DNA of 64,000 bases from Rufibacter glacialis (GTDB lineage: Bacteria; Bacteroidota; Bacteroidia; Cytophagales; Hymenobacteraceae): NCBI RefSeq assembly GCF_008271745.1, contig NZ_VKKZ01000019.1, positions 558,001-622,000 on the forward strand. Reading direction: 5' to 3'. Of the stretch, positions 9,103-60,298 are shown piece after piece. The translations under genes were made by a program, and so were the position numbers. The first letter of the stretch is position 1. Each line of letters starts with the position of its first letter. Below the pieces are notes generated by a model that did no database searches, was not told where the DNA came from, and was given only the letters and a program-made list of their open reading frames with translations.

Positions 9103-9132
9103 TTTAGCGGCCTTTTTTGAGAAAAGAGGCGG
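9103..9132. repeat. Dispersed palindromic repeat, copy
   Basis: GCGGCC, a T run, GAGAAAAGAGGCGG: a degenerate copy of the window-wide GGCC...GTTTTC...GAAAA...GGCC element, 11 bp after the VWA stop. Confidence 0.4.
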
Positions 9133-9140
9133 TTAATATG

Positions 9141-9320
9141 TTATTGCTGGCCTTTTTTGATCTCGCGGCGCCGTAGCTCATTGCCCCAAATGCCTAGTGC
9201 CATGGCTACTGCGATAAGGATATAGGAGCCAGACTTTTCCATAACATGGGAGATTCTTAAGGCGGCGACAGCCACTGCCAGGGCAGAGGCAAGGAGATAT
9301 AGTAAGGAAGACGTTCTCAT
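9141..9320 (-). CDS. Small membrane protein, paralogue of the neighbouring 62-aa protein
   Basis: A 59-codon frame on the minus strand, ATG at 9320 and TAA at 9141. The product has two hydrophobic segments (LLYLLASALAVAVAALRISH and YILIAVAMALGIWGNELRRR) and ends in a basic tail. It aligns along its whole length with the 62-residue product at 9551-9739: MRTSSLLY against MKTHNLLY, ALRISHVMEK against ALRITHTIEK, and a basic C-terminus in both. That paralogy is the main evidence that this frame is real and that the longer overlapping frame at 9178-9456 is not. Function unknown; it may touch the VWA/AAA+ machinery by location only. Confidence 0.7.
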   Translation of the reverse strand: MRTSSLLYLLASALAVAVAALRISHVMEKSGSYILIAVAMALGIWGNELRRREIKKGQQ

Positions 9321-9513
9321 AGGGAGTACGAGCTAAGAAATAAACCTTGTAATCCCGCAAGTACCGCTTGTGCTCCCGCAAGTTTGAGCGAAGCGGTAAC
9401 TTGTGGGAACTAGGAGGCCAGTTTGCAACTGGCGAATTTAAAAATGCTGGCTCCAACTGGCCTTATACGGGTAGGCGAAGGCAGTAAAACGGAAAGGAAA
9501 TAGAGAGCAACAG

Positions 9514-9546
9514 TTTTAAGCCTGCTTTTTGAAAATAAAGGCAAAA
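9514..9546. repeat. Dispersed palindromic repeat, copy
   Basis: TTTTAAGCC, CTTTTTGAAAATA, AAGGCAAAA: arms and core of the window-wide element are clear, immediately 3' of the 62-aa gene. Confidence 0.55.
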
Positions 9547-9550
9547 GTGT

Positions 9551-9739
9551 TTATAAGGTTGTATTCTCCAGGTTCCGTTGATACTTCTTCTTCAACCAGG
9601 CGGCTAGCAGGGACAATGCGATACTAGACCAGAAAATGATGTCAAAGGTAGGCTTCTCAATAGTGTGGGTGATTCTCAGTGCAGCACCCAGTATCACCAT
9701 GGAAGTGGCAATGATATAGAGAAGATTATGTGTTTTCAT
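9551..9739 (-). CDS. Small two-helix membrane protein
   Basis: A 62-residue protein with two predicted membrane helices (residues 6-22 and 31-48) joined by a short loop with RITHTIEKP, and a positively charged tail (WLKKKYQRN). The pattern (hydrophobic, ..L+ITH.., hydrophobic) recalls short GldL-like proteins of Bacteroidota, but the similarity is too weak to assign a function. The frame extends to 9769, but a TATCTTTC box at 9757-9764 supports starting at 9739. A paralogue of 59 residues lies downstream at 9141-9320. Both oppose the flanking VWA and AAA+ genes. Confidence 0.75.
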   Translation of the reverse strand: MKTHNLLYIIATSMVILGAALRITHTIEKPTFDIIFWSSIALSLLAAWLKKKYQRNLENTTL

Positions 9740-9764: not shown

Positions 9765-9824
9765 CCCATTTTTTTCGTTCAGCCAATTGAACGTAGCTGT
9801 TAAAAGAAGCAATCATAAATTCTG

Positions 9825-9859
9825 TTTTCGGCTCTATTTTAAAAAAATAAGGCCGAAAA
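9825..9859. repeat. Dispersed palindromic repeat, copy
   Basis: Arms TTTTCGGC (9825-9832) and GCCGAAAA (9852-9859) flank an A/T core with a GNNNTATTTT start. It lies between the small membrane protein gene and the AAA+ gene. Confidence 0.55.
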
Positions 9860-9898
9860 TGGGAATAAGACCAACCATTAACCATCAGCAAACAGAAA

Positions 9899-11434
9899 AT
9901 GCTTTATACTGATATACCTGCAGAGCAACTGCACAAGATCAAGACCTTGGGCCAGTTGAAGGCCGCCGGCTATGAGCCGCGAAGCGTGAAGGAAGAACTG
10001 CGCGCCAACCTCATCCAGAAACTGAGCAGCGGCGAAGAGGTGTTCCCCGGTATCTTCGGGTACGAGGAAACCGTGATCCCAGACCTTCAGCGTGCCATCC
10101 TGAGCCGCCACCACATCAACCTGCTGGGCTTGCGCGGACAGGCCAAGACCCGCATAGCGCGCCTCCTGGTGCAGCTCCTGGACGAGTATGTACCCGTGGT
10201 AGCCGGCTCTGAGCTGAACGATGACCCCCTGCAGCCGCTTTCGCGTTATGCCTTGGATCAGATTGCCCACCACGGCGACGACACCCCCGTCAGTTGGCTG
10301 CACCGCGACGAGCGCTACACCGAGAAACTGGCTACCCCAGACGTCTCCGTAGCCGACCTCATCGGCGATGCCGACCCTATCAAAGCCGCTACCTTGAAAT
10401 TGCCGTACTCAGATGAGCGCGTGATCCACTTCGGGCTGATCCCAAGGGCGCACCGCGGTATCTTCGTGATCAACGAACTGCCCGATCTGCAGGCTCGCAT
10501 CCAGGTGTCATTGTTCAACATTCTGCAGGAAGGCGATATCCAGATAAGGGGCTTCAAGATCAGGCTGCCGCTGGACATCCAGTTCGTGTTCACGGCCAAC
10601 CCCGAGGACTACACCAACCGCGGTTCCATTGTGACCCCGCTCAAAGACCGGATTGACTCCCAGATCATCACGCATTACCCTAAGAACATAGAGGTAGGCA
10701 AGCGCATCACCAAGCAGGAGGCCCGCATTGCGCCGGTGCAGAAAGACCGCGTGAAAGGCCATGAACTTATCCATGACCTGGTAGAGCAAATTGCCTTTGA
10801 GGCCCGCGAGAGCGAATACGTAGACGCGAAAAGCGGCGTGTCGGCACGGTTGACTATTTCTGCTTATGAGAGTGTGGTAAGTGCCGCGGAAAGGCGCGTG
10901 CTGCTCAACGGCGAGACCCAGACCCATGTGCGTGTCGCGGATTTCCTGGCCGCGGTTCCGGCCGTGACGGGCAAGGTGGAACTGGTGTACGAAGGGGAGC
11001 AGGAAGGCGCCGGCGGCGTGGCTTATCGGTTGATGGGCAAAGCCATCAGAACGCAGTTCCTGCACTACTTCCCGGACCCAGACAAGTTCAAGAAGCAGAA
11101 AGAGAAGGACCCCTACAAGAAAGTGACCGCCTGGTTCTCAGACGGCCACACCCTGGACCTGCTCAATGACGCCTCAGACGCCGAGTACAAGCGGGAACTG
11201 AACCAGGTGCCGGGCCTTTCTGAGGTGGTGAACAAATTCCAGGCAACGCCGCAGAGCGAAGCCGAGCACCTTTTCTGGATGGAGTTCTGCCTGCACGGCC
11301 TGGCCGAGTACAGCCTTATCTCCCGCAACCGTCTTACCGCCGGTCTACAGTTCAAAGACCTGCTCAGCAGCATGTTCTCCGGCGGCGGCTTCACCCTCAC
11401 CGAAGACGACGAGGACGACAACGACCGTTTTTAG
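9899..11434 (+). CDS. Magnesium chelatase subunit I/MoxR-like AAA+ ATPase
   Basis: AAA+ ATPase of 511 residues. Walker A is GLRGQAKT (77-84), the Walker B region is GIFVINEL (187-194, with N in place of the usual D), sensor 1 is FTANPEDY (231-238), and PLKDRID (R251) is the likely arginine finger. The layout matches BchI/MoxR-like ATPases that act with VWA proteins; the VWA gene at 7992-9092 is the obvious partner. The C-terminal ~200 residues are helical and end in an acidic tail (TEDDEDDNDR). No chlorophyll or cobalamin genes are present, so Mg-chelatase activity is not implied. The stop codon TAG lies within a copy of the dispersed palindrome. Confidence 0.87.
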   Translation: MLYTDIPAEQLHKIKTLGQLKAAGYEPRSVKEELRANLIQKLSSGEEVFPGIFGYEETVIPDLQRAILSRHHINLLGLRGQAKTRIARLLVQLLDEYVPVVAGSELNDDPLQPLSRYALDQIAHHGDDTPVSWLHRDERYTEKLATPDVSVADLIGDADPIKAATLKLPYSDERVIHFGLIPRAHRGIFVINELPDLQARIQVSLFNILQEGDIQIRGFKIRLPLDIQFVFTANPEDYTNRGSIVTPLKDRIDSQIITHYPKNIEVGKRITKQEARIAPVQKDRVKGHELIHDLVEQIAFEARESEYVDAKSGVSARLTISAYESVVSAAERRVLLNGETQTHVRVADFLAAVPAVTGKVELVYEGEQEGAGGVAYRLMGKAIRTQFLHYFPDPDKFKKQKEKDPYKKVTAWFSDGHTLDLLNDASDAEYKRELNQVPGLSEVVNKFQATPQSEAEHLFWMEFCLHGLAEYSLISRNRLTAGLQFKDLLSSMFSGGGFTLTEDDEDDNDRF

Positions 11435-11461
11435 GCTTGTTTTCTTAAAATTAGGCGAAAA
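11428..11461. repeat. Dispersed palindromic repeat, copy overlapping the AAA+ stop codon
   Basis: TTTTTAGGCTTGTTTTC, TTAAAATTAGGCGAAAA. The TAG stop of the AAA+ gene (11432-11434) is part of the left arm. Confidence 0.6.
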
Positions 11462-11470
11462 TCTTCCTTC

Positions 11471-12300: not shown

Positions 12301-12311
12301 GCCAAGTTTTG

Positions 12312-12343
12312 TTTTTTGCCTGTTTTGGGAAAATAAGCCAAAG
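12312..12343. repeat. Dispersed palindromic repeat, copy
   Basis: TTTTTTGCCTGTTTTGG, GAAAATAAGCCAAA: a good match to the consensus, 12 bp after the ZIP-like gene. Confidence 0.6.
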
Positions 12344-12374
12344 AACCAGTTTTAATTTAACCTTGCTTTCATAA

Positions 12375-13014: not shown

Positions 13015-13110
13015 CGAATTTTACCGCTACCGCCCAGGTGATTCCCTCCCAAGAAATAGAACCGCTGTTTGCCGGCCGTTTTTTCAAAATAGCCCCTAAA
13101 CGCTATAGAG

Positions 13111-18046: not shown

Positions 18047-19078
18047 ATGACACTAAAAGAAAATTTAGCTCTTCCAGTCGGCACAACCCTAGACCGGTTT
18101 ATCATGCGGAAACAAGAAGATTTCCCCTACGCCACTGGTGAATTATCTCAATTGCTGCGGGATATCGCTTTGGCTGCAAAAATAGTAAACCGGGCCATAA
18201 ACCATGCGGGCCTGACGGATATAGGAGGAGCATACGGAAAACAGAACGTGCAAGGGGAAGACCAGCAGAAACTGGACGTGGTGGCCAATATCCGCTTCAT
18301 ACGCGCCCTGCGCAACGGAGGAGAGGTTTGCGCCATCATCTCTGAGGAAGAGGAAGACGTGATCCACACCGGCAATAACAACGGGAAATACATTGTGGCC
18401 ATTGACCCACTGGACGGTTCCTCTAACATTGACGTGAACGTGTCTATTGGCACCATCTTCTCTATCTACCGCCGGGTTTCTGAACTAGGCACCGAGGCCA
18501 CCATGGATGATTTCTTCCAGAAAGGCACTGAGCAGGTAGCCGCCGGATATGTGATCTATGGCTCCAGCACCATGTTGGTGTATACCACTGGCAACGGGGT
18601 TAACGGCTTCACCTATGAGACTTCTTTGGGTGAGTTCTTCCTGTCGCACCCTAACATCACCACGCCCCAGAACGGCAGCATCTACTCGGTGAACGAGGGC
18701 GGGTTCAACCATTTCCCGGAGAGCATCAAGCATTACGTAGAGCTTTGCCGCGTGCGCAACTACGCCGCCCGCTACATTGGTTCTCTGGTAGCCGACTTCC
18801 ACCGCAACCTGTTGAAAGGTGGCATCTACCTGTACCCCAATACATTGAAATCACCCGGCGGAAAGCTGCGGTTACTATATGAGTGCAATGCCCTGGCGTT
18901 CCTGGTAGAGCAGGCCGGCGGAAAAGCCTCTGACGGCCGGCAACGGATCCTGGAGATCCAGCCTTCAGAACTGCACCAGCGCTGCACCCTGTACATTGGG
19001 TCAAAAGACATGGTGAACGAGGTGGAGAACCTGCTGGTGGCCCGAGACCGGCCGGTTAGATCTTCTTTGGCCGTTTAA
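18047..19078 (+). CDS. fbp: Fructose-1,6-bisphosphatase class 1
   Basis: Hydrolyses fructose 1,6-bisphosphate in gluconeogenesis. The metal-binding signature is [14 protein letters not shown] (DPLDGSS at 120-126), preceded by the acidic SEEEED (99-104); [25 protein letters not shown] is the C-terminal active-site block. The length (343 residues) is typical. Monocistronic, with an unusually long perfect terminator. Confidence 0.95.
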
Positions 19079-19106
19079 GCCCTTATTTCACCAAAACAGC
19101 CTCTAA
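19074..19106. repeat. Dispersed palindromic repeat, copy overlapping the fbp stop
   Basis: TTTAAGCCCTTATTTC, ACCAAAACAGCCTCTAAA: the element in reverse orientation. It includes the TAA stop of fbp and runs into the left arm of the terminator. Confidence 0.55.
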
Positions 19107-19158
19107 ACAAAGCGGCCCCTGCTATCTGGCAGGGGCCGCTTTGTTTAGAGGCTGTTTT
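19093..19158. terminator. 30-bp perfect hairpin between convergent genes
   Basis: Arms 19093-19122 and 19129-19158 are perfectly complementary around a 6-nt TATCTG loop, beginning with AAAACAGCCTC and ending with GAGGCTGTTTT. It separates fbp from the DUF5606 gene and should terminate both directions. The outer arms are the core of the dispersed palindrome. Confidence 0.9.
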
Positions 19159-23034: not shown

Positions 23035-23065
23035 TATTTCTGGGCTGTTTTCCAGAAATCTATCT

Positions 23066-23101
23066 TCAAAGAGCCCCGGCCAAACGGTCGGGGCTCTTTG
23101 A
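23066..23101 (+). terminator. Terminator of the PorE-like gene
   Basis: TCAAAGAGCCCCG (23066-23078) pairs with CGGGGCTCTTTGA (23089-23101), 31 bp after the stop. Confidence 0.85.
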
Positions 23102-26094: not shown

Positions 26095-26110
26095 AAACAG
26101 AGGGGGGAGG

Positions 26111-26144
26111 TTTTTACCGCCTTTTCCAGAAAACGGGGTTTAAA
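26111..26144. repeat. Dispersed palindromic repeat, copy (weak)
   Basis: TTTTTACCGCCTTTTCC, AGAAAACGGGGTTTAA: arms and core are recognisable but degenerate. It precedes the 3' end of the esterase gene (minus strand). Confidence 0.4.
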
Positions 26145-26158
26145 CAATGGGTGGTGAT

Positions 26159-27433: not shown

Positions 27434-28807
27434 ATGAACAAGATCCTGCTCCTGGGCGCCGGTCGCTCCGCCTCCGTTCTCCTTGATTACCTTCTAGTAA
27501 ACGCAAGTACTTTTAACTGGCAAGTGGCCGTGGGCGATGTGCGGGTAGACCACCTGGCCCGGCAGGTCCAGCAAAATCCCCAGCTAAGAGCCTTTGTGTT
27601 TGATGTGCAGGACGAGGCGCAGCGCAGGGAAGAGATCGGTCGGGCCGAGGTGGTGATCTCCATGCTGCCCGCCCTGTTTCACCCGCTGGTAGCGCAGACC
27701 TGCCTGGATTTGGAAAAGCACTTGGTCACCGCTTCGTACGTGCCGCCCCAGATCAAAGCCATGCACGCCCAGGCCGAAGCCAAAGGCCTCACCTTTCTCA
27801 TGGAATGCGGGCTGGACCCCGGCATTGACCACCTCTCGGCCATGCGGCTCATTCACCAGATACAAGGGCAGGGCGGCACCATTACCTCCTTCAAATCCTT
27901 TACCGGCGGCCTCATGGCCCCTGAGTCTGACAACAACCCCTGGCACTATAAATTTACCTGGAACCCGCGCAATGTGATTTTGGCCGGGCAAGGTACGGCC
28001 CGCTACAAGCAAGACGGCAGCTACAAATACATCCCTTACCCCGTGCTGTTCAGGCGCACGGAGACCTTTCTGGTAGAGGGGTTCGGGTACTTTGACGGCT
28101 ATGCCAACCGCGACTCCCTGGGCTACCTGGAGCCCTACGGCCTGGAAGGCATTCAAACCATGCTGCGCGGCACCCTGCGCCGGCCTGGTTACTGCCAGGC
28201 CTGGCAAGTGCTGGTGCACCTGGGCCTCACTGACGATTCTTATTCTCTGGCAGACTCTTCGCACCTGACCTACGGCGATCTGGTGAGAAGTTTCTTGCCC
28301 CCGAGCCCGGAAAGCCATCTGCCGCTCAAAGAACAGGTAGCTGCCTACCTAAGAATTGCCCCTGAGGTCGAAGAACTGCAGCTTGTGGAATGGACGGGTC
28401 TTTTTGACGAGGTACCTATTGATCTGGAGAATGCTACTCCGGCCCAGGCCCTGGAGAAACTGCTGGTGCAGAAATGGAAGCTGGAGCCCGGTGATAAAGA
28501 TATGATTGTGATGCTGCACGAGTTGGAGTACGAACAGGAGGGCGACAAAAGAAAATGCACTTCTTCTCTGGTGGTGCTGGGCGAGGACGAGGTGCAGACG
28601 GCCATGGCCAAAACGGTGGGCCTGCCCCTGGGCATCGCGACCAAGCTCCTGCTGCAAGGGAAGCTGCAAGCAAAGGGCGTCGTAGTGCCGCTGCAACCCG
28701 ATCTTTATCTTCCCATCCTGGCGGAACTGGAACAGTACGGCATCCGGTTCACGGAGCGGGAAGAGCAGACCAGCGATTTTGGGGTGATTTCAAGGAATCA
28801 GGCGTAA
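27434..28807 (+). CDS. Saccharopine dehydrogenase family protein
   Basis: NAD(P)-dependent dehydrogenase of 457 residues. The Rossmann motif is ILLLGAGRSAS at the N-terminus, VVISMLPALFHP is the conserved NAD(P)-binding strand, and MECGLDPGIDHLSAM matches the saccharopine dehydrogenase/spermidine-synthase-linked family. In Bacteroidota such genes are usually annotated as saccharopine dehydrogenase, but a role in lysine breakdown versus another amino-acid reaction cannot be decided here. An in-frame ATG at 27394 exists; 27434 gives the family start MNKILLLGAG. Confidence 0.88.
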   Translation: MNKILLLGAGRSASVLLDYLLVNASTFNWQVAVGDVRVDHLARQVQQNPQLRAFVFDVQDEAQRREEIGRAEVVISMLPALFHPLVAQTCLDLEKHLVTASYVPPQIKAMHAQAEAKGLTFLMECGLDPGIDHLSAMRLIHQIQGQGGTITSFKSFTGGLMAPESDNNPWHYKFTWNPRNVILAGQGTARYKQDGSYKYIPYPVLFRRTETFLVEGFGYFDGYANRDSLGYLEPYGLEGIQTMLRGTLRRPGYCQAWQVLVHLGLTDDSYSLADSSHLTYGDLVRSFLPPSPESHLPLKEQVAAYLRIAPEVEELQLVEWTGLFDEVPIDLENATPAQALEKLLVQKWKLEPGDKDMIVMLHELEYEQEGDKRKCTSSLVVLGEDEVQTAMAKTVGLPLGIATKLLLQGKLQAKGVVVPLQPDLYLPILAELEQYGIRFTEREEQTSDFGVISRNQA

Positions 28808-28872
28808 AATAGGAAGACAGGTTTAGGCCGTTTGCTCCCCATTAGGTAGACCATTGTCTCATGGGATTTACC

Positions 28873-30324: not shown

Positions 30325-30400
30325 CCCAAACTTGCCTAGGAGTAGCGGGAAGGCCCCATATTATTTCTGGAGGAGGTACCCTGGCAAAGTGGAGGAACCG

Positions 30401-30436
30401 TTTTTAGCCTGTTTTCAGGGAAACATCCCTAAAAAA
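30401..30436. repeat. Dispersed palindromic repeat, copy
   Basis: TTTTTAGCCTGTTTTCAG, GGAAACATCCCTAAAAAA: close to the consensus. It lies in the 344-bp gap between rnhA and the CarboxypepD_reg-like gene, which holds no gene. Confidence 0.6.
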
Positions 30437-30500: not shown

Positions 30501-30538
30501 TGTTTTGGCTGCATTTTGGGAAAGTCAGCGGCAAAACA
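30501..30538. repeat. Dispersed palindromic repeat, copy
   Basis: TGTTTTGGCTGCATTTTG, GGAAAGTCAGCGGCAAAACA: second copy in the same gap, with self-complementary outer ends (TGTTTTG / CAAAACA). Confidence 0.5.
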
Positions 30539-31720: not shown

Positions 31721-31729
31721 TACAACCGG

Positions 31730-40968: not shown

Positions 40969-41005
40969 GGGAAATAGAAAGGTGAGAAAAATTCAGAGAG
41001 AGAGG

Positions 41006-41034
41006 TTTTAGGGCTGGTTTAGAGAAAAGAGGCC
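41006..41034. repeat. Dispersed palindromic repeat, copy
   Basis: TTTTAGGGCTGGTTTAGAG, AAAAGAGGCC: strong left arm, in the gap between the metalloprotease and the unknown 225-aa gene. Confidence 0.55.
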
Positions 41035-41099
41035 ATGAACAAGATGATCCTGATTATAGAACCTGCAGGTGAAGTACCATTATGACGGGAGAAAAAGCC

Positions 41100-41965: not shown

Positions 41966-44098
41966 TTACCCCTTCAGCAACTTCTCTAAAATCTCCTGCG
42001 CGGCAACACTAATGACCGTTCCTGGCCCAAACACGCCTGCAACCCCGGCATCATACAGGAACTGGTAATCCTGGGCAGGAATTACGCCGCCGGCAATAAC
42101 CATGATGTCGTCGCGGCCTAATTTTTTAAGTTCGGCAATCAAGGAAGGAATGAGGGTTTTATGGCCGGCGGCCAGGCTGCTCACGCCTACCACATGCACG
42201 TCGTTCTCGGCGGCTTGCAGGGCTACTTCTTCCGGGGTTTGGAAGAGCGGGCCCAGGTCTACGTCAAACCCGAGGTCGGCGAAAGAGGTGGCGATGACTT
42301 TGGAGCCGCGGTCGTGGCCGTCCTGGCCCATTTTAGCGACCATGATTCTGGGTCTGCGGCCTTCCTGGGCGGCAAACTGATCAGCTAAAGCCTGGGCCTT
42401 GCCGAAGTTCTCGTCGTCTGATATCTCTGAACTGTACACGCCGGATATGGATCTGATGGTGGCCCGATGGCGGCCGTAAACTTTTTCTAACGCATAAGAA
42501 ATTTCGCCCAAGCTGCAGCGCACGCGGGCCGCTTGCACGGCCAGTTCCAACAGGTTGCCCTCGCCGGTTTCGGCAGCATTGGTGAGTGCATCCATGGCGG
42601 CGAACACGGCGGCCTCATCGCGGTTCTCGCGGAGCTGGGCCAGCCGCGCCAGTTGCGATTCGCGCACGGCGGTGTTGTCAATGTCCAGAATCTCCAGTTT
42701 TTCCTCAGACTCCGGCCGGAATTTGTTCACACCCACGATCACGTCTTTGCCGGCATCAATGCGGGCCTGTTTGCGGGCGGCGGCTTCCTCAATGCGCATC
42801 TTGGGCAGCCCGGTTTCAATGGCTTTGGCCATACCGCCCAAGCGCTCCACTTCCTGGATCAGGTCCCAGGCGCGGTGCGAGAGTTGGTGGGTGAGGGCCT
42901 CCACGTAGTAAGAGCCGCCCCACGGGTCTACGGTTTTAGTGATGTGCGTTTCCTGCTGCAGGTAAATCTGGGTGTTGCGGGCAATGCGCGCCGAAAAATC
43001 CGTGGGCAAGGCAATAGCCTCGTCCAAGGCGTTGGTATGCAGACTCTGGGTTCCACCTAAAGCCGCGGCTAAAGCTTCCACGGTGGTGCGGGCTACGTTG
43101 TTGAACGGGTCTTGCTCGGTGAGGCTCCAGCCAGAGGTTTGGCAATGGGTACGCAGGGCCAGGGATTTGTCGCTTTTGGGGTTGAACTGCTTGATGAGCT
43201 TGGCCCATAGCATACGGGCGGCGCGCATCTTGGCAATCTCCATGAAGTGGTTCATGCCAATCGCCCAGAAAAACGATAAGCGCGGCGCGAAGGTGTCAAT
43301 GTCCATGCCCGCGGCCAAGCCGGTACGCACGTATTCCAGGCCATCCGCCAGGGTATAGGCCAACTCCAGATCGGCCGTGGCCCCGGCTTCCTGCATGTGG
43401 TAGCCACTGATGGAGATGGAGTTGAATTTGGGCATATGCCGCGAGGTGTAGGCGAAGATATCGGCGATGATCTTCATGCTGGGCTCCGGCGGATAAATGT
43501 AGGTGTTGCGCACCATGAACTCCTTCAGGATGTCGTTCTGGATGGTGCCGCTCAACTGCTCCGGTTTCACGCCCTGCTCCTCGGCGGCCACAATGTAGAA
43601 GGCCAGAATGGGCAGTACCGCGCCGTTCATGGTCATGGAGACGCTCATCTGGTCCAGCGGAATCTGATCGAACAGAACCTTCATATCCAGAATGGAGTCA
43701 ATGGCCACGCCCGCCTTGCCCACGTCGCCCACCACGCGTGGGTGGTCTGAGTCATAGCCCCGGTGCGTAGCCAGGTCAAAGGCCACGGAAAGTCCTTTTT
43801 GCCCGGCTTCCAGATTCCGGCGGTAAAACGCGTTGGATTCCTCGGCGGTACTGAAGCCGGCATACTGCCGGATGGTCCAGGGGTTCTTCACGTACATGGT
43901 GCTGTACGGCCCGCGCAGGAAGGGTGGCAGACCAGCCGCGAAGTCCAAGTGCTCAAAGGCGGCCGTGTCTTCTTTGGTGTAGAAGTTCTGCAGGGGCAGC
44001 CGCTCCGCCGTTTTCCAGGCCTTGGGCTCCGTTTTGGGCGCGTTTTGGCCAACAGAGGCCGAAAACGTGAAAGGTATCTTGGTGAAATCTGGTTTCAT
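41966..44098 (-). CDS. mutB: Methylmalonyl-CoA mutase large subunit
   Basis: Catalytic subunit interconverting succinyl-CoA and methylmalonyl-CoA, with adenosylcobalamin as cofactor. The N-terminal TIM barrel (about 1-550: [41 protein letters not shown]) is followed by the cobalamin domain with the base-off motif DGHDRGSK and a helical PLFQTPEEV region. The length (710 residues) is usual. The small subunit lies upstream, but an NTF2-like gene intervenes. No cobalamin riboswitch was seen before it. Confidence 0.95.
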
Positions 44099-44895: not shown

Positions 44896-44937
44896 CCTGC
44901 TTTGGGGCTGTTTTTCCAGAAACAACCCCAAAGCAGG
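44896..44937. repeat. Dispersed palindromic repeat, copy with 12-bp perfect arms
   Basis: CCTGCTTTGGGG (44896-44907) and CCCCAAAGCAGG (44926-44937) flank CTGTTTTTCC, AGAAACAA. One of the most complete copies in the window. Confidence 0.7.
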
Positions 44938-45020: not shown

Positions 45021-46856
45021 CTACGCGCCTAACCGTTCCTGAATGCGGGTGATGATTTCTTTGGTGTCACAGCCCTGGAACAGGAACTCGTCAAAGCCGT
45101 GCCCGCGGAGCTCATCTTTCAAGCTCATGGGGTCATCGGCGAGGATCAGGGCTGGTCCCTGTTTCTGCTGGGCCCGCATCCCTTTGGCGAAGGCCTCCGC
45201 AAACTCCTGGAACTGCTGGTCTGGGGCTGCCATCACTATCACCTGCACGTCCAGTTCTTTCACACCCGTCAGCGCCGCAGAAACATTGTCGAATTTCAGC
45301 ACCTGGGTAGTGAAGCCCGAACAGGTGAAAAACTCGCGGGCGAAGGAGGCGTGTATATGTTCCTGCAAGGCCTTTCCCATGTGCACCACCAACGCATGCG
45401 GACGGCGCTTCTTCTTCCGGAAATGCAGCTCGGTGGCCAGGCGCATCACTTCATAGGAGTAGGCAGCGCGGGTATTGTCAAATTTTTTGCTCTGGATCAG
45501 TTTCTCCGGGTCAAATTCGTGCTGCTCGTTGGGGTTGGGGAATTTGTTTGTGCCCAGTATTACCTCTTTGCCGCTGGCAATATCTTTGAACTTCTGGTTT
45601 GTGGTTTCCTTGATCAGGTCCTGGATAAAGCCCGCGTTGGAGGCCGGAATGAACCCACCCTTGCCTTCAATTTCCTGAAACAGCGCCCAGGCTTTCTCCG
45701 CGATCTGCTGGGTGAGGTACTCCAGGTAATAGGAACCAGCCGCCGGGTCAATGGCCTGGTCCAGGTACGCTTCCTCTCTAAGGATGATGGGGATATTACG
45801 GGCAATGCGCTCACTGAAGGCGTTGTCTTCCTTGAAGGTGCTGTCAAAAGGCTCTACCTCCACGGAGTCGGCTCCGCCGATGATGGCGCTCATCATCTGG
45901 GTAGTATGGCGCAGCAGGTTGGTATGCGGATCCAGGGTGGCCTGGTGCCAGCGGGACGTGGAAACGTGGATGCGGAGTGCACCCGCCGCTTCCTGCGGGG
46001 CACCGTAGGCTTCCACCACCTTCGCCCACAGCAGCCGCACGGCCCGTAGTTTGGCAATCTCAAAGAAGTAGTTGGTGCCTGCCGTGAGGTGGAACTGCAT
46101 GTTCCGGAAGATACGCTCCTCGGGCAGCACCTCGTGCCGTATTCCGTTGGTATAGCACACGGCAATAGCCAGCGTGATGGCGATTTCCTGCACCAGCGTG
46201 GCACCCTTGTTGCTGAAGTGCGAGCCGTTGATGGTGAGGGCGTAGAAATTATCCGCGTCCAGAGACTGTTCCAACAGGTGTTTCACGTGGTCCATGTCCA
46301 GCAGCTTGTAGCTCTCTGACGACAGGATAGGCGCGCACTTCAGGAACCCGTTCAGCTGCCCTAAGCTCAGGCCTTTGCGGTAAAGACCGGTCACCAGGTG
46401 GTGCAGAAAATTGGCCGCCTCAGAGGAAACCGTGTATGATACCGGCACCTGGGTGAGATCAATATGCTCAATTAGGTAATCACAGTCAAACTCATACCCA
46501 TTCTCCAGAATGAAATGAATCCCGTCTACGCCGCGGGTGAGAACAGAAACCGCCTTGTCTACCGCCTTGTGCCCTTTGCTGGTGGAGTGGATGGCCTGCA
46601 GGTTAAGCCATTGGTTTTTCTGCGTTTTGGCCGTGCGCACGAAAGGGGATTGCCCTGGCCGGGTATCCAATGCCGGGTTCTGCGGAAGGTCTTCCCTTGT
46701 ATAAAACGGGGCCACGGAAATCCCCTCGTAGCTCTGCCACTGCAGGTCGGCGGGATCAGTGCCTTTGAGGTCTTGGGTTACTCTGGCGGTCCATTGCGCA
46801 GCCGTTACCGGCCCAAACTCCGGGAAAAGTGCCTCCTCTGAGGATTTGTCTGTCAT
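45021..46856 (-). CDS. mutA: Methylmalonyl-CoA mutase small subunit
   Basis: Non-catalytic partner of mutB, with the mutase barrel (GTNYFFEIAKLRAVRLLWAKVVE, FDSTFKEDNAFSERIARNI) but a C-terminal domain that lacks the DxHxxG cobalamin motif, as is normal for the small subunit. The length (611 residues) is typical. A TATCTTTA box lies at 46881-46888. The usual direct mutA-mutB junction is broken by a ~0.9-kb insert with the NTF2-like gene and repeats. Confidence 0.92.
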   Translation of the reverse strand: MTDKSSEEALFPEFGPVTAAQWTARVTQDLKGTDPADLQWQSYEGISVAPFYTREDLPQNPALDTRPGQSPFVRTAKTQKNQWLNLQAIHSTSKGHKAVDKAVSVLTRGVDGIHFILENGYEFDCDYLIEHIDLTQVPVSYTVSSEAANFLHHLVTGLYRKGLSLGQLNGFLKCAPILSSESYKLLDMDHVKHLLEQSLDADNFYALTINGSHFSNKGATLVQEIAITLAIAVCYTNGIRHEVLPEERIFRNMQFHLTAGTNYFFEIAKLRAVRLLWAKVVEAYGAPQEAAGALRIHVSTSRWHQATLDPHTNLLRHTTQMMSAIIGGADSVEVEPFDSTFKEDNAFSERIARNIPIILREEAYLDQAIDPAAGSYYLEYLTQQIAEKAWALFQEIEGKGGFIPASNAGFIQDLIKETTNQKFKDIASGKEVILGTNKFPNPNEQHEFDPEKLIQSKKFDNTRAAYSYEVMRLATELHFRKKKRRPHALVVHMGKALQEHIHASFAREFFTCSGFTTQVLKFDNVSAALTGVKELDVQVIVMAAPDQQFQEFAEAFAKGMRAQQKQGPALILADDPMSLKDELRGHGFDEFLFQGCDTKEIITRIQERLGA

Positions 46857-46880
46857 AAAAATAGCAGGCGTATAATGGGG

Positions 46881-46888
46881 TAAAGATA
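46881..46888 (-). promoter_or_regulatory. -7-like box for mutA
   Basis: The minus strand reads TATCTTTA, one mismatch from TAnnTTTG, 25 bp upstream of mutA. No cobalamin riboswitch box was seen nearby. Confidence 0.35.
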
Positions 46889-46936
46889 ACTTTTTGCTCC
46901 AACTGTTCTACGGCTGCCGTGGGATTTGCGCTGTCT

Positions 46937-46973
46937 GTTTTAGGCCCGGTTCTGCAAAAAGAGGCGCTAAAAG
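46937..46973. repeat. Dispersed palindromic repeat, copy
   Basis: GTTTTAGGCCCGGTTCTG, CAAAAAGAGGCGCTAAAAG: clear arms, slightly altered core. Confidence 0.5.
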
Positions 46974-47071
46974 AACATATGCCAACCGTTGAATAGGAAA
47001 GAACCAGAAGAGTGGCCGTGAAACCAGTTGGGAGAGGCATTCTTAGGGCGGAGGTATTTCCCTGAATTCCA

Positions 47072-47107
47072 TTTCAGGCTTGATTCCCTGGAAACAGCCC
47101 TAAAATG
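47072..47107. repeat. Dispersed palindromic repeat, copy
   Basis: TTTCAGGCTTGATTCCC, TGGAAACAGCCCTAAAATG: reverse orientation of the consensus. Confidence 0.5.
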
Positions 47108-47595
47108 CCTCACTCTAGCTTCAACCACGCAACCGGCAAGACCTGTGAAGACAAGGCATGCGTAAAGAGACAAGGCGGTGCCGTTGTCTCTACAGGGTTC
47201 TCCTCACCGTCAATGCTACTTTCCCCTGTTCCAGTCTTTCCCGAGCGCGCCTCGCTTTTGGCCCTAGATAGGCACATACTAAGAGAAACAGACAGTTCAG
47301 GCCGAAAGGGCAGTGCGAGAGGGGAAGACGGGGCCCCGCGGCCGTGAGCGCTCGGAGAGTAGCTATGGAAAGGCAAAGCATAAGGGCACCGCATCAACCA
47401 GCCGCCACGCCAGCAACGGCAAAAGGCATTCCCCATAATCGGGCAGCGCAAGTAGAAGATAACGGAACCCCGCCCTGCCTCACACCCACCAAAGTCTTCT
47501 GATCTTCAAGAAAGTAGCCTGTAAAAGGCGTCTTTTCCCCAAGCGAACGCTCCACGTGGCAAAACCCAAACCCAGATTCTGCGTCTCTACTCCAC
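47108..47595. other. Non-coding gap before the DUF72 gene
   Basis: The whole mutA-DUF72 gap is about 740 bp. After two dispersed palindromes it holds a GTAGAGAC palindrome (47166-47193); the rest has no believable gene. The longest frame (47110-47451, minus) has a composition unlike the neighbouring proteins and includes the palindrome. Confidence 0.45.
47166..47193. repeat. GTAGAGAC palindrome, copy 2
   Basis: AGAGACAAGGCGGTGCC, GTTGTCTCTAC: same family as the copies at 35172, 54794 and 54927. Confidence 0.65.
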
Positions 47596-48767: not shown

Positions 48768-48795
48768 GTTTTAGGCCCGTTTTCAGGAAATGAAC
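48768..48795. repeat. Dispersed palindromic repeat, copy
   Basis: GTTTTAGGCCCGTTTTCAG, GAAATGAAC: strong left arm and core, right arm lost. It lies between the DUF1232 and ctlX genes. Confidence 0.55.
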
Positions 48796-48809
48796 TGTAA
48801 ATAAGATGG

Positions 48810-49930: not shown

Positions 49931-49965
49931 TTTTCAGGGCCGTTTTCCTGAAAAGGCCCTGAAAA
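49931..49965. repeat. Dispersed palindromic repeat, near-perfect copy
   Basis: TTTTCAGGGCC (49931-49941) and GGCCCTGAAAA (49955-49965) are exact inverted arms around GTTTTCCTGAAAA. Best copy for defining the consensus. It lies in the otherwise empty gap between ctlX and the 87-aa gene. Confidence 0.75.
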
Positions 49966-50039
49966 CATAATCCCCTTTCCTGGTCTGCGCACAGAACAGG
50001 AAAGGGGACAGGGTTAAAAAGGTTTTAAACAAGAAGGTT

Positions 50040-54241: not shown

Positions 54242-54691
54242 ATGATTTCAAAAAAAGCCAAGTACGCCCTCAAAGCGCTTTTGTATTTAGCGAAGCAGCA
54301 AGATCGCGGCCTGGTGCTTATCTCTGAGATTGCCGCCGCAGAGCGAATCCCTCGTAAATTCCTGGAAGCCATTCTGGTAGACCTCAAGGTGCAGCAGATC
54401 GTGCAAAGCACCCGCGGCAAGAACGGCGGCTACACCCTGGTGAAAGACCCGGCCCAGATCTCCGTGGGCAACGTGATCAGGATGGTAGACGGCCCGCTGG
54501 CCCCAGTGCACTGCGTGAGCCACCTCTATTACCGCAAGTGCGAAGAGTGCGTAGACGAGGCCACCTGCGAGATACGCCTGCTCATGAAGCGCGTGCGCGA
54601 TGCCACCTGTGACATTCTGGACACCACCTTTCTGGCTGATTTCTCCAAAGTAACCGCCCTGGTGGTAGAGGAGGAAGCCAACCAGATCTAA
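54242..54691 (+). CDS. Rrf2 family transcriptional regulator
   Basis: Winged-helix regulator of 149 residues with the Rrf2 N-terminus (SKKAKYALKALLYLAKQQ), ISEIAAAERIPRKFLEAILVDLK and RGKNGGYTLVKDP (wing). The cysteines C91, C100, C103, C109 and C123 could bind a [2Fe-2S] cluster, but spacing differs from IscR (C-x5-C-x5-C), so the sensed signal is open. It begins 23 bp after dnaA. Targets unknown; a nearby peroxiredoxin gene invites an oxidative-stress role, which is only a guess. Confidence 0.85.
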   Translation: MISKKAKYALKALLYLAKQQDRGLVLISEIAAAERIPRKFLEAILVDLKVQQIVQSTRGKNGGYTLVKDPAQISVGNVIRMVDGPLAPVHCVSHLYYRKCEECVDEATCEIRLLMKRVRDATCDILDTTFLADFSKVTALVVEEEANQI

Positions 54692-54710
54692 GTTCCTATT
54701 TTCATTTTAG

Positions 54711-54743
54711 GGCTGTTTTAACCAAACTAAGGTTAAAACAGCC
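54711..54743 (+). terminator. Terminator of the Rrf2 gene, built on the dispersed repeat
   Basis: GGCTGTTTTAACC (54711-54723) pairs with GGTTAAAACAGCC (54731-54743), followed by a T run. The left part (TTTTAGGGCTGTTTTAA) is the dispersed-repeat left arm and core. Confidence 0.85.
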
Positions 54744-54955: not shown

Positions 54956-55302
54956 TTTGTAAATGCCTGACTTAACGGACTCATCAGACCTGCAGATCTG
55001 CCTTTTCAGCCCACCAAGCCATTTTAACCTTGTTTTCCAGAAGAAGGCCATAAAAGGAAACCACGTTGGCGGCTACAGCAGGGAAACTGCGGAACTTAGC
55101 GACGAAACCTACTTTCTATTATCAACTTGCTAATTATATTCCTGAGGGGTTGGATTTACCGCAATTGGTTTCTTTATTTGTCTACTTCATCTATAGAGAT
55201 TCTTTCGCAGTTATAGAGTTGAACAGCTATAGAGATGCCTCTCATGGTGGAGCAGCATACGTCCTTTGGCACCTACTTTTCCAATTTTAAGCAATAAACA
55301 TT
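54956..55302. other. Non-coding gap before the 1-Cys peroxiredoxin gene
   Basis: The first part holds a dispersed-repeat copy (55022-55057). A frame at 55066-55290 starts only with TTG, is A/T-richer than its neighbours and has no recognisable feature; it is not called. Confidence 0.4.
55022..55057. repeat. Dispersed palindromic repeat, copy
   Basis: TTTTAACCTTGTTTTCCAG, AAGAAGGCCATAAAAGG: core and right arm good. Confidence 0.45.
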
Positions 55303-56603: not shown

Positions 56604-57038
56604 TTAGGCGCCTTTCAGCGTCGCCTTGAGCGTCATCTCCGGTACAGAGGCCAAGGCCCGGGAGATAGGGCAGCCCTCTTTGGCCTTCTGGGCCAGCTGC
56701 TGCAGTTCCTCGTCAGACAGACCCGGGGCCTCCACCTCGGTGGTCAAATCAATCTTCTTGATGAACGGTCCGTTGTCTTGCCCCAGGTGCACCTTGGCCT
56801 GGGTTCTCACCGAGATCGCCTTTTTGCCGGCTCCCTCCAGCAGGCTGCTCAGGAACATGGAGAAGCAGCCTGCGTGGGCGGCGCCTACCAGTTCTTCAGG
56901 GTTAGTGCCGGTCACGTCTTCCTCAAAGCGGGTACCAAAGGAGTAGCGGGCGTCTAGCGTGCCGCTTTGGGTGGAAACAGTTCCTTTTCCGTCTTTCAGG
57001 CCACCTTGCCAGATGCCTGTACCTGTGTTATTTGCCAT
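56604..57038 (-). CDS. OsmC family peroxiredoxin-like protein
   Basis: A 144-residue OsmC protein that reduces organic hydroperoxides through two cysteines: C58 in AHAGCFSMFL and C123 in EGCPISRAL. GTGIWQGGLKDGKGTVSTQSGTL and PEELVGAAHAG are family hallmarks. The length is typical of OsmC rather than Ohr. Third peroxide-detoxifying protein in the window after the two peroxiredoxins, but not in their operons. Confidence 0.92.
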   Translation of the reverse strand: MANNTGTGIWQGGLKDGKGTVSTQSGTLDARYSFGTRFEEDVTGTNPEELVGAAHAGCFSMFLSSLLEGAGKKAISVRTQAKVHLGQDNGPFIKKIDLTTEVEAPGLSDEELQQLAQKAKEGCPISRALASVPEMTLKATLKGA

Positions 57039-57275: not shown

Positions 57276-57310
57276 GTTTGGGTGGCCTTTTCCTGAAAAG
57301 CCACCCAAAC
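57276..57310. repeat. Dispersed palindromic repeat, copy with 11-bp arms
   Basis: GTTTGGGTGGC (57276-57286) and GCCACCCAAAC (57300-57310) flank CTTTTCCTGAAAA; arms differ from the consensus in sequence but are exactly complementary, showing compensatory change. Confidence 0.65.
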
Positions 57311-57360: not shown

Positions 57361-57446
57361 CAGCTTCTCAAAGAGAGGAAGCCCCGCAATTTTTTAGAAT
57401 TAAAAGCAGATTCTTCCGTTTATTCAGATACAAGCATATTGACTAC

Positions 57447-58946
57447 ATGGGAATAAAAGCGCTCTTGAGTAAACCTATGGCCGCCTGGGTAGTGGCCCGC
57501 CAACAACGTTGGATGGAAGACCCCGCCCAGGCCCAGCAACAGGTTTTTGCGTCTATCGTCCGTGCCGCGGCTTCCACCGCTTTCGGGAAAGACCATTACT
57601 TCAAGGACGTGCAGACCCCGCAGGATTTGGCGCAAGCCGTACCCGTGCGCGACTACGAGGCGCTGCGCCCGTACTTTGACCGCCTGAAGGCCGGGGAGCG
57701 CGATGTGCTCTGGCCGGGCCTGCCCTTGTATTTCGCTAAAACCTCCGGCACCACCTCAGGCACCAAGTACATTCCCATTACCCAGGCTTCTATTCCCAAT
57801 CACATAAACGGGGCCAAAAACGCCCTCCTGAATTATATCCAGGAAACGGGCCGGTCTCAGTTTCTAGACGGTAAACTGATTTTCCTGAGCGGTAGTCCGG
57901 TTTTGGAGGAAGTGGCCGGTATCCATACCGGTCGGCTGTCGGGCATTGTAAACCACCATGTGCCGGGCTACCTGCGCACCAACCAGTTGCCCAGTTACCA
58001 AACCAATTGCATTGAGGACTGGGAAACCAAGCTGGATGCCATTGTGAACGAGACCATTGACCAGCGCATGACGCTCATCTCAGGCATTCCGCCCTGGGTG
58101 CAGATGTATTTTGACAAGATCATGTCGCGCACGGGCAAGCAGATCAAAGACGTGTTCCCAGACTTTAACCTGTTTGTGTACGGCGGTGTGAACTTTGCCC
58201 CCTATAAAACCAAGCTGCTGGACAGCATTGGCCGCCAGGTGGATTCCATAGAGACGTTTCCGGCCTCAGAGGGCTTTTTCGCGTTCCAGAACCGGCAGGA
58301 AGACCCCAGCCTGCTCTTGCTCGCCGACAGCGGTATTTTCTACGAATTCATTGCCGTGGAGGAGTTCTACCAGCCCAACCCGCGCCGCCTTACGCTGGCC
58401 GAGGTGAAGACCGGCGTCAATTACGCCCTCATCATCAGCAGCAACGCCGGGTTGTGGGGATATTCCATAGGCGACACCGTCAAGTTCACGTCCTTGTTCC
58501 CGCATAAACTAGTGGTGAGCGGCCGCCTGAAGCATTTTATCTCGGCCTTCGGGGAACACGTGATAGGAGAGGAGGTGGAAGGCGCCCTGCAAGATGCCAT
58601 GGCCGAGTTCCCGGAGGTGGCCGTGACCGAGTTCACCGTGGCGCCTTACGTAGACCAGGGCAACGGCCCTTCGTACCATGAATGGCTTATTGCCTTTGAC
58701 TCGCCGCCGCATGACCTGGAACGGTTCGCCAAATCCCTAAACTGGCACCTGCGCAAACGCAATACCTATTATGATGACCTTATCTCAGGTAACATCCTGG
58801 CCACGTTGAAGGTGACTCCCTTGCCGCCCAATGCCTTTCAGCAGTACATGAAACGGCAGGGCAAGCTGGGGGGGCAGAACAAAGTGCCCCGGCTAAGCAA
58901 TGATCGTACCCTGGCCAATGGCTTGCTGGAAGCCCTGCAGGTTTAA
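57447..58946 (+). CDS. GH3 family adenylate-forming protein
   Basis: Protein of 499 residues of the GH3/auxin-responsive superfamily, in which plant members conjugate amino acids to acyl acids. ATP-binding motif FAKTSGTTSGTKYIPIT (about 100-116), FPDFNLFVYGGVNFAPY, FPASEGFFAFQ and GLWGYSIGDTVKFTSL are visible; the C-terminal domain contains HLRKRNTYYDDL. In Bacteroidota the substrate is unknown. The downstream CNNM/CorC gene follows by 24 bp, so they may be cotranscribed. Confidence 0.92.
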   Translation: MGIKALLSKPMAAWVVARQQRWMEDPAQAQQQVFASIVRAAASTAFGKDHYFKDVQTPQDLAQAVPVRDYEALRPYFDRLKAGERDVLWPGLPLYFAKTSGTTSGTKYIPITQASIPNHINGAKNALLNYIQETGRSQFLDGKLIFLSGSPVLEEVAGIHTGRLSGIVNHHVPGYLRTNQLPSYQTNCIEDWETKLDAIVNETIDQRMTLISGIPPWVQMYFDKIMSRTGKQIKDVFPDFNLFVYGGVNFAPYKTKLLDSIGRQVDSIETFPASEGFFAFQNRQEDPSLLLLADSGIFYEFIAVEEFYQPNPRRLTLAEVKTGVNYALIISSNAGLWGYSIGDTVKFTSLFPHKLVVSGRLKHFISAFGEHVIGEEVEGALQDAMAEFPEVAVTEFTVAPYVDQGNGPSYHEWLIAFDSPPHDLERFAKSLNWHLRKRNTYYDDLISGNILATLKVTPLPPNAFQQYMKRQGKLGGQNKVPRLSNDRTLANGLLEALQV

Positions 58947-58970
58947 GCCTTTTCCCTTTTCAAACCACCC

Positions 58971-60254
58971 ATGGAAATATTGATTTTAGTGATTCTTACC
59001 TTGTTGAACGGCTTTTTCGCCCTGTCAGAGATCTCCATCATCTCGGTGAGGAAAGACAGGATGAAGCGCAAAGCCCAGGAAGGGAATAAAAACGCCCAGG
59101 TAGTGCTAGACCTGCTGGAGGAGCCGGAGGATTTCCTGTCGGCGGTGCAGGTGGGCATCACCTTGATTGGGGTGGTGTTGGGTGCCTATGGCGGGGCCGC
59201 CCTCTCAGATGACATGCGCGTGGTGCTGGAGCAGGTGGCGTTTCTGGCCCCTTATGCCCAAACCTTGTCCATTGTGATTGTTATTGGCCTAATCACCTAT
59301 TTCTCCATTGTGATTGGGGAATTGATTCCTAAGACGCTGGCCATGGGCAACAGTGAGGCCATTGCGCTGTTTGTAGCTCCCATTATCAAAATCTTCACCA
59401 AACTGACCCTTCCGCTGGTCAAGCTGCTCTCCGCCTCTACCAACGTGGTCATCAAGCTGCTGCGAATCAAAGAGCCCGAAGAAGAGAAGATGTCTGAGGA
59501 GGAACTGCGGCAGATCATCAAAACCGCTGGCCGTCAGGGCGTTCTGGCCAAAGAAGAGACGGACCTGCACCAGAATATCTTCCATTATGCCGCGCAGAAG
59601 GCCAAGCACCTCAAAACCCACCGCATGGAGGTAGAGTGGGTGAGCCTGCAAGACACCCCGGAGGAGATCAACGCCAAAATCCAACGCAGCGCCCACTCCA
59701 AGTTCCCGGTGTATGACCGCGCACCCGACCAGGTGCTGGGTATTCTGAACGCGAAAGACTTCTATGAGAACCTGCTGAACGAGCGGATGCCCCTGACCTC
59801 CATTCTCAAGGAGCCATTGTTCGTGCCCGAGACCATGTATGCCAACACGGTGCTGAACCTGTTCAAAAAGCACAAAGTCTACATGGGCATAGTGGTAGAT
59901 GAGTTTGGGTCGGTGGAAGGGATTGTGACCCTGCATGACCTGCTGGAAGCCATTGTAGGTGACATCCCTGACCTGGACGAAGAGCAGGAAACCCTCTTTG
60001 TGCCCCGCGCCGACCATTCTTACCTGGTCAGCGGGTCCATTCCCATCCGGGAACTGAACCGGAAACTGAAACGCGAGTTCATCAAAAAAGACCCCTCGGA
60101 GTATGAGACCCTGGCTGGCTTCGTGCTGCACCACCTGAACCGGATTCCCGCCACCGGTGAAACCTTCCTGTACAACGGCGTGGAGGTAGAGGTGGTGGAC
60201 CTGGACGGCAGCAAGATTGACAAACTCCTCCTGAAAGAAGTGCTCCTGAAGTAG
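58971..60254 (+). CDS. CNNM/CorC-type membrane protein (hemolysin family)
   Basis: A 427-residue protein with a DUF21 (CNNM) transmembrane domain (three to four helices in the first ~150 residues: ILILVILTLLNGFFALSEISIISVRKDRMK, GITLIGVVLGAYGG), a CBS pair (about 200-320: HRMEVEWVSLQDTPEEI, VYMGIVVDEFGSVEGIVTLHDLLEAIVGDI) and a C-terminal CorC/HlyC domain. Members are linked to Mg2+ or Co2+ efflux rather than haemolysis. Confidence 0.93.
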   Translation: MEILILVILTLLNGFFALSEISIISVRKDRMKRKAQEGNKNAQVVLDLLEEPEDFLSAVQVGITLIGVVLGAYGGAALSDDMRVVLEQVAFLAPYAQTLSIVIVIGLITYFSIVIGELIPKTLAMGNSEAIALFVAPIIKIFTKLTLPLVKLLSASTNVVIKLLRIKEPEEEKMSEEELRQIIKTAGRQGVLAKEETDLHQNIFHYAAQKAKHLKTHRMEVEWVSLQDTPEEINAKIQRSAHSKFPVYDRAPDQVLGILNAKDFYENLLNERMPLTSILKEPLFVPETMYANTVLNLFKKHKVYMGIVVDEFGSVEGIVTLHDLLEAIVGDIPDLDEEQETLFVPRADHSYLVSGSIPIRELNRKLKREFIKKDPSEYETLAGFVLHHLNRIPATGETFLYNGVEVEVVDLDGSKIDKLLLKEVLLK

Positions 60255-60261
60255 AAGGTTG

Positions 60262-60298
60262 TTTCAGGCCTGTTTTTGGGGAAATCACCCGAAAATGG
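60262..60298. repeat. Dispersed palindromic repeat, copy
   Basis: TTTCAGGCCTGTTTTTGG, GGAAATCACCCGAAAATGG: close to the consensus, 8 bp after the CNNM/CorC gene. Confidence 0.6.

Follow-up and report, generated by a model that had tools for sequence, protein, structure and literature searches.

A 36-bp intergenic dyad with species dialects in Rufibacter, possibly a protein-binding site at transcription-unit borders

A 64,000-nucleotide stretch of Rufibacter glacialis DNA (NCBI RefSeq assembly GCF_008271745.1, contig NZ_VKKZ01000019.1, positions 558,001 to 622,000 of the forward strand; hereafter the window) carries an imperfect palindrome that recurs from one intergenic gap to the next. Rufibacter is a genus of soil bacteria. 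A preliminary description of the window proposed that the repeat is a repetitive extragenic palindromic (REP)-like element, a recurrent terminator or a protein-binding site, which raises the question of what the element is. We found it to be a 36-bp dyad with the consensus GTTTTnGGCCTGTTTTCnnGAAAACAGGCCnAAAAC, mostly intergenic and made of two ~18-bp half-sites; in each of these, two A/T tracts are spaced by 11 bp, approximately one helical turn. Among the three proposals, protein binding is the best supported by the dyad form, position-specific constraint, absence of strand-specific pairing, copies in divergent gaps and species dialects. We therefore regard the dyad as a putative site of a dimeric DNA-binding protein that would block or insulate transcription-unit borders in both directions, and give this reading a probability of roughly 45%.

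Form, abundance and distribution of the dyad

The 17 copies listed in the preliminary description were all found at their positions and recovered by a scan combining consensus and pairing, with scores of 15.4 to 27. A covariance model was built from 12 window copies of 36 nt each, because MAFFT alignments of copies of unequal length were poor, and with filters off it detected 27 distinct window sites at E ≤ 0.01, 15 of them outside the training set. These include 16 of the 17 copies, the last one (30501) reaching E = 0.23. The earlier estimate was about 25 copies; the length of ~35 bp given with it is replaced by a unit of 36 bp. The scan gave 23 window sites with a score of at least 18, 21 of them outside open reading frames (ORFs) of a first gene call, and one such site altogether in five Markov resamplings of the 22 kb of window intergenic DNA under the same call, a clear excess. 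Because genes were absent from this first call, another took its place; gene starts in the final call are rough.

The window's genome, examined over 464 kb, had 144 intergenic sites and 7 coding ones with a score of at least 18, compared with 0.33 in resampled intergenic DNA, a density biased upward, as 20 stretches outside the window were picked after hit lists had been obtained and 18 of them hold a listed hit. Copies were counted on stretches because the whole-genome model search scored the best 150 of 8174 candidates; a whole-genome search with the left-arm pattern, allowing one mismatch, returned 53 matches and the reversed pattern none. A systematic sample of another Rufibacter genome, G017 (400 kb, taken every 200 kb), contained 165 intergenic and 3 coding sites of at least 18, with 0.7 expected by chance, at 3 to 14 copies per 20-kb stretch, which extrapolates to ~1,700 copies in 4.14 Mb.

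All 16 Rufibacter genomes searched gave 45 to 57 matches each among the best candidates scored (at most 57), while 5 of 104 other genomes of the family Hymenobacteraceae gave 1 to 5. Thus, the search of related genomes that had been suggested places the dyad nearly exclusively in Rufibacter among the family genomes searched. Rfam at gathering thresholds returned no match in the window, an exact-pattern scan of viral contigs returned none, and no description of the element was recognised in open-licence literature. BLAST of a 40-nt consensus against plasmids returned one Rufibacter plasmid (E = 0.5) and three further weak matches. In 150 kb of the 235-kb Rufibacter tibetensis plasmid NZ_CP012644.1 (L205-L207), 3 sites scored at least 18, a density far below that of the chromosomes of the genomes sampled, that strain's own chromosome not being part of the comparison. 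Since this one plasmid is almost copy-free, the element may tell long-resident chromosome from recently acquired DNA.

Placement, conservation and dialects

Copies occupy all three classes of gap. Among gaps of at least 80 bp, a copy was present in 27/35 convergent, 83/150 tandem and 18/43 divergent gaps of the G017 sample, and in 28/47, 72/147 and 17/61 of those in G000, respectively; tandem gaps shorter than 40 bp held none (0/49 in G017, 0/38 in G000). The median copy in a tandem gap lies 36 bp past the stop in G017 and 61 bp in G000, and 129 and 134 bp ahead of the next called start. A second copy in the same gap was rarer than chance in three of four genomes. Where less than 400 bp was available, second copies numbered 5 in G017 against 28 expected (lowest of 1000 simulations, 20), 4 in G000 against 19 (lowest, 12) and 2 in G012 against 6.5 (lowest, 2). 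Without a length limit, observed and expected numbers were 13 and 33 (G017), 17 and 28 (G000), 8 and 10.3 (G012), and 14 and 16.5 (G051).

Occupancy of gaps is conserved between species. G017 and G022 share ~85% DNA identity, and with a score threshold of 14 their orthologous gaps agreed in 131 of 138 cases (72 gaps with a copy in both species, 59 without one in either, 7 with a copy in one species). For gaps around the methylmalonyl-CoA mutase gene in 16 genomes, pairwise comparison gave 376 occupied in both, 147 in one and 274 in neither, against 392 one-sided if occupancy were independent, although these pairs share history and are not independent. One divergent gap was occupied in 16/16 genomes and one tandem gap in 15/15, whereas the gap ahead of dnaA was occupied in 0/14. 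A single copy in each of the two species was present in 58 of the 138 gaps; 54 of these pairs could be aligned and 4 could not. In the 54 aligned pairs the copies were 83.6% identical and their flanks (up to 25 bp on each side) 68.0%. In the 51 pairs of length 36, positions 3-5, 14-15, 22-23 and 32-34 had at most 2 changes each and were near-invariant T/A, while changes were commonest at positions 12, 16, 18-19, 25 and 27-28. This pattern points to site-specific purifying selection on orthologous copies rather than neutral decay.

The spelling of the half-sites differs between species. Held-out copies fitted the profile of their own genome best in 7/7 cases for G051, 9/10 for G017 and 3/6 for G012, the last count omitting two test copies that overlap the profile sample (5/8 with them). 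The spellings are GTTTTCGGGCTCATTTC in G051, GTTTTTGGCCTGTTTTC in G017 and GTTTAGGGGCtGTTTTT in G048 (7 copies). Species thus have half-site dialects, in which both arms shift together. We read this as a dyad site whose reader drifts. Many G051 copies (L165-L174) are almost perfect palindromes that reach 44 bp and are flanked by TTCC/GGAA. They do not follow a one-per-gap arrangement, and this copy set may be a recent wave in that species. Occupancy across genera was considered too, with two genomes of another genus of the family (G001 and G007) pooled against Rufibacter (14 gaps occupied in both, 9 and 4 one-sided, 12 in neither; p = 0.03, comparisons not independent). It is not claimed, because the other genus's weak matches in the divergent gap that was read look like promoter sequence. 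A promoter-like block, GTAAAGATA...TTTTTGC, lies in the gap 46857-47595 beside the mutase gene; it is common to Rufibacter species and, by eye, also present in G001.

Other members of the family have dispersed words of their own. The top over-represented intergenic words of G001 (L161-L164; L185-L202 together with G007) belong to a different, mostly asymmetric motif of ~30 bp, with three A/T tracts 11-12 bp apart, a TA[GC]CGTTTT core and about one copy per kb. In 80 kb of G001 it had 72 intergenic and 15 coding matches against 4 in resampled intergenic DNA, and in a further 200 kb 126 and 61 against 5; in coding sequence 57 matches compared with 19 after synonymous shuffling. The same profile gave 57 intergenic and 33 coding matches against 0 in 160 kb of G007, but there the motif does not rank with the top over-represented words. 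In four further genera, sampled at 80 kb each, there were weaker repeated words particular to them, among them CCTAGGTGCC, CTATATATGG and CTGAGGAGGG as over-represented words in G004 (L153-L156), G002 (L145-L148) and G016 (L157-L160).

The window copies are collected in Table 1. The preliminary description had placed none inside a coding sequence beyond the stop codon. Nearly all are indeed intergenic, with two lying inside ORFs (28776-28810 and 44031-44066) and those at 11428 and 19073 overlapping stops. For the ORF 41966-44098(-) the Pfam domain begins at residue 29, and its start is therefore possibly overcalled. The segments 9150-9320 and 9551-9739, between copies, resemble each other on inspection by eye; they are possibly short minus-strand ORFs that are paralogous.

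Table 1. Dyad copies in the window, with their position relative to called genes (no strand is assigned to the copies).
Feature	Position	Context
Dyad copy	7139-7174	8 bp 3' of stop of 6147-7130(+)
Dyad copy	9102-9137	~10 bp 3' of stop of 7992-9092(+)
Dyad copy	9513-9548	
Dyad copy	9824-9860	38 bp 5' of 9899-11434(+)
Dyad copy	11428-11462	overlaps stop of 9899-11434(+); then terminator-like hairpin
Dyad copy	12311-12346	10 bp 3' of ORF ending 12300(+)
Dyad copy	13067-13101	
Dyad copy	19073-19108	overlaps stop of ORF ending 19078(+); then terminator-like hairpin
Dyad copy (weak)	23036-23071	directly 3' of ORF ending 23034(+)
Dyad copy	26110-26145	
Dyad copy (weak)	28776-28810	over last ~30 bases of ORF ending 28807(+)
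Dyad copy	30400-30435	
Dyad copy (weak, E = 0.23; first listed as 30501)	30502-30537	
Dyad copy	31691-31726	3 bp 3' of stop of 31730-32302(-)
Dyad copy	33485-33520	upstream of revised start of 32346-33407(-)
Dyad copy	36302-36336	14 bp from called start of 35316-36287(-); equal distance in 8/9 genomes having the gap
Dyad copy	41005-41040	
Dyad copy	44031-44066	within first ~22 codons of 41966-44098(-) as called
Dyad copy, long complementary arms	44899-44934	86 bp 3' of stop of 45021-46856(-)
Dyad copy	46937-46972	divergent gap, 80 bp from start of 45021-46856(-); gap occupied in 16/16 genomes
Dyad copy, second in divergent gap of 46937 copy	47071-47106	
Dyad copy	48768-48802	
Dyad copy, outer arms fully complementary	49931-49966	gap occupied in 15/15 genomes
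Dyad copy	54704-54739	12 bp 3' of stop of 54242-54691(+)
Dyad copy, same gap as 54704 copy	55021-55056	
Dyad copy, outer arms fully complementary	57276-57310	between divergent ORFs 56604-57038(-) and 57477-58946(+)
Dyad copy	60261-60296	6 bp 3' of stop of 58971-60254(+)
Dyad copy (weak)	60386-60421	17 bp 5' of 60440-61594(+)

Mobile-element, transcript and uptake readings

A doubtful alternative is that the dyad is a REP-like non-autonomous mobile element, amplified in the Rufibacter ancestor, preferring the surroundings of terminator hairpins and now mostly static, so that the likeness of copies would reflect common origin and occasional new waves. The distribution is indeed REP-like: the dyad is an extragenic palindrome within the 20-40 bp range, has a high copy number and is nearly restricted to one genus, and the G051 copies are closely alike and not under-dispersed; the foot and the clustering of REPs were not seen. 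According to PMC3733652, REPs carry GTAG or CGTC. The half-site consensus with two flanking bases reads ccGTTTtnGG in G000, cCGTTTTTGG in G017, CCGTTTTcGG in G051 and CcGTTTTagG in G012, with no unpaired GTAG/CGTC foot in any of the four and flanks that tend to pair. Clusters or inverted dimers were not frequent, second copies being below chance in G000, G017 and G012 and near chance in G051.

Genes with a Y1_Tnp match, as expected for REP-associated tyrosine transposases (RAYTs), occur in 15 of the 16 Rufibacter genomes, but G017 has clean copies and no such match. Some of these genes carry the NHLH and YIHQNP motifs, which PMC6006769 gives for the Bacteroidetes TnpA-REP subclass 2.6, with atypical REPs that lack GTAG. 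Twelve Y1_Tnp loci (39 kb) contained 21 copies with a score of at least 16. At two of them (L098 and L100) the match has copies both to its left and to its right at no more than 400 bp, compared with 1-2% of random segments, and at two no copy lies within ~1.5 kb on either side. The double flanking is weak evidence, because any short gene has a gap at either end, and gaps of at least 80 bp are occupied in about half of cases; moreover, homology between L098 and L100 ends well before the copies. The 7 discordant gaps among 138 showed no clean empty site with a target-site duplication in the alignments inspected. In three gaps, alignments read by eye showed copy-spacer-copy in one genome where another has a lone copy whose outer flanks match. 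Two of these gaps differ between G017 and G022; the third, the divergent gap 46857-47595, sets this pair apart from other species. On this reading, recombination or insertion at copies does happen. The G022 spacers between two copies (L122, L135-L144; gaps matching G017:C1:462753 and 582965) contain another repeat, which includes an inverted repeat resembling GTAG...CTAC and may be a conventional REP family. Against a mobile origin stand the agreement in occupancy, the constraint by position in orthologous copies and the nearly copy-free genus plasmid.

That the dyad acts in RNA, as a hairpin at mRNA 3' ends that would halt exonucleases or aid termination, is unlikely. Such a role would fit the position of tandem copies close to stops and the covariation of flank stems and arm positions 5-8, and its bearing on termination is considered below. 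If the transcript hairpin were functional, G-U pairs should be tolerated above A-C on the transcript strand. In this strand test no excess of G-U over A-C was found on that strand, either for tandem copies near stops (306 vs 300; positions 1-8 63/73, 9-17 128/125, flanks 115/102) or for copies farther away (249 vs 263; 46/54, 93/122, flanks 110/87), and one of 12 comparisons had p < 0.05 (divergent gaps, 22 vs 41, where orientation is arbitrary). Covariation within positions 9-17 was scattered, at position 12 in G000 and G051, 9 in G051, 11 and 15 in G017, and 13 in G022. Proof of a hairpin by within-genome arm covariation was accordingly rejected for the inner arms, where covariation is weak. 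A hairpin is unlikely to be the main function of the dyad because the inner arms, which are variable, covary little within genomes and G-U shows no excess over A-C.

Exactly complementary arms of differing sequence had been taken to suggest compensatory change. This holds across species at one orthologous site, and within genomes is mainly limited to positions 5-8 and the flanks. Among orthologue pairs, changes at positions 1-12 broke 37 base pairs, restored 31 and left pairing intact in 11 two-sided cases. At one orthologous site in 11 species (11 of 15 copies, those of 36 nt), 87.5% of positions were paired compared with 81.4% after shuffling, with slid controls far lower, and 8 pairs had two-sided changes against 3.5 shuffled, counts that relatedness inflates. 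The findings within and between species are compatible if every species has a half-site of its own.

The link with terminators is confined to part of the copies. Contiguous stems of at least 5 pairs outside the element were found at 25/168 copies in the G017 sample (5.6 permuted) and 12/113 in G000 (2.2), and at 17/89 in a 220-kb G017 region and 21/97 in a G022 region (3.3 permuted each); the G017 sample and region overlap by ~22 kb, so the stem, hairpin and T-run sets are not fully independent. In convergent gaps a strong hairpin ends no more than 5 bases from the copy, in most cases directly against it, on 14/68, 14/54, 14/62 and 16/76 3'-facing sides, compared with 3-6% at control places. 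The tandem counts were 12/100, 4/44, 2/44 and 11/82, and divergent gaps gave 0 or 1. T-runs follow 23-27% of convergent and tandem copies in the direction of the gene, and A-runs 11-14% (27% vs 11% for tandem copies near stops); in divergent gaps the two are equal. Where a hairpin adjoins a copy, the outer GTTTTT of the copy probably serves as the U-tract, and termination appears to be coupled to the dyad in a minority of copies. The proposal of a recurrent terminator therefore survives for a minority in or directly behind a terminator-like hairpin; an intrinsic terminator has a hairpin with a U-tract directly behind it in the gene direction, but most copies have no T-run behind them, and copies, some of them conserved, stand in divergent gaps.

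Haemophilus uptake sequences have phased A/T tracts. It is very unlikely that the dyad is a DNA uptake (transformation) sequence, with dialects by species, that is maintained through uptake bias as it is in Neisseriaceae: its ~1,700 copies, its dialects, its association with terminators, the spacing of its A/T tracts by about one turn, the presence of ComEC and the overlapping dyad DNA uptake sequence pairs described in PMC3630211 would fit, as would a slight coding excess at a score of at least 14 (7 and 8 sites vs 2.3 and 3.0 after synonymous shuffling), but half-site words are scarce in coding DNA (3 and 8 vs 2.0 and 2.6 expected, with 114 and 87 in gaps) and PF00437, the T2SSE/PilB/PilT-family ATPase, had no match in the window's genome (controls, 14/14 matched, 13 above cut-off).

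A putative boundary site and its relation to known systems

Returning to protein binding, a sequence-specific Rufibacter protein, dimeric or tetrameric, would recognise the double-stranded dyad through its two ~18-bp half-sites. About one site would be retained per transcription-unit border, past stops, in convergent gaps and in some divergent gaps. The bound protein would most likely form a boundary in both directions, whether by blocking polymerase as a roadblock or by topological insulation, with an effect on transcription or chromosome structure, backing up intrinsic terminators and shielding neighbouring promoters. The recognition sequence would drift between species and the sites would follow.

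Several points weigh against this proposal. The binding protein is predicted from dyad, constraint and dialects and has no named candidate, and ~1,700 sites are very many for a single sequence-specific protein. The one-per-gap rule fails in G051, where second copies numbered 8 against 10.5 expected. A part of the signal is linked to terminators: among copies scoring at least 20, 11 to 22% continue into an outer stem of 5 or more contiguous pairs, and about one in five to one in four sides of copies in convergent gaps adjoin a hairpin. The strand test was run without a positive control. There is covariation within genomes at arm positions 5-8 and in the flanks (-4 to 0), with z up to 7, as expected of a hairpin or cruciform but not of a simple dimer site, and total pairing lies slightly above all permutations (G000, 10.36 vs a maximum of 10.08; G022, 13.61 vs 13.54).

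A more speculative extension of the protein-binding proposal, which we hold tentatively, is genome-wide punctuation in which a fast-evolving lineage-specific protein and its ~1,700 sites shift together, an insulator code with a different code in the neighbouring genus. Dispersed extragenic palindromes are often taken for mobile debris; here gaps stay occupied throughout the genus while the spelling changes. Whether the borders of transcription units in a bacterium are marked by a site that a protein reads, and which protein this is, can thus be tested directly.

Gyrase and IHF at bacterial interspersed mosaic elements (BIMEs) of E. coli provide roadblock or topological-insulator sites, and Moulin et al. 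(2005) are reportedly to be named beside them. The Rufibacter dyad shares with these sites its placement downstream of and between transcription units, but is lineage-specific, 36 bp long, present about once per border and served by a putative reader protein. With the uptake sequences of Neisseriaceae (PMC3630211) and Pasteurellaceae it shares thousands of copies, lineage dialects, terminator association and, in the case of Haemophilus, phased A/T tracts; in contrast, the dyad is scarce in coding DNA, is a dyad by design and stands in a genome without a match to a type IV pilus or type II secretion ATPase. Subclass 2.6 REPs, compared through their description in PMC6006769, occur in the same phylum, lack GTAG as well and are accompanied by RAYT-like ORFs whose motifs recur in the genus, whereas copies of the dyad form no regular pairs around such ORFs and G017 has no Y1_Tnp match. 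Finally, the REP/BIME and RAYT system (PMC3733652) likewise has extragenic palindromes of 20-40 bp in high copy number, mostly in convergent and tandem gaps; the dyad differs from it in having no GTAG/CGTC foot, in occurring mostly as singletons, and in its genus-wide conserved occupancy, its dialects and its constraint without strand bias.

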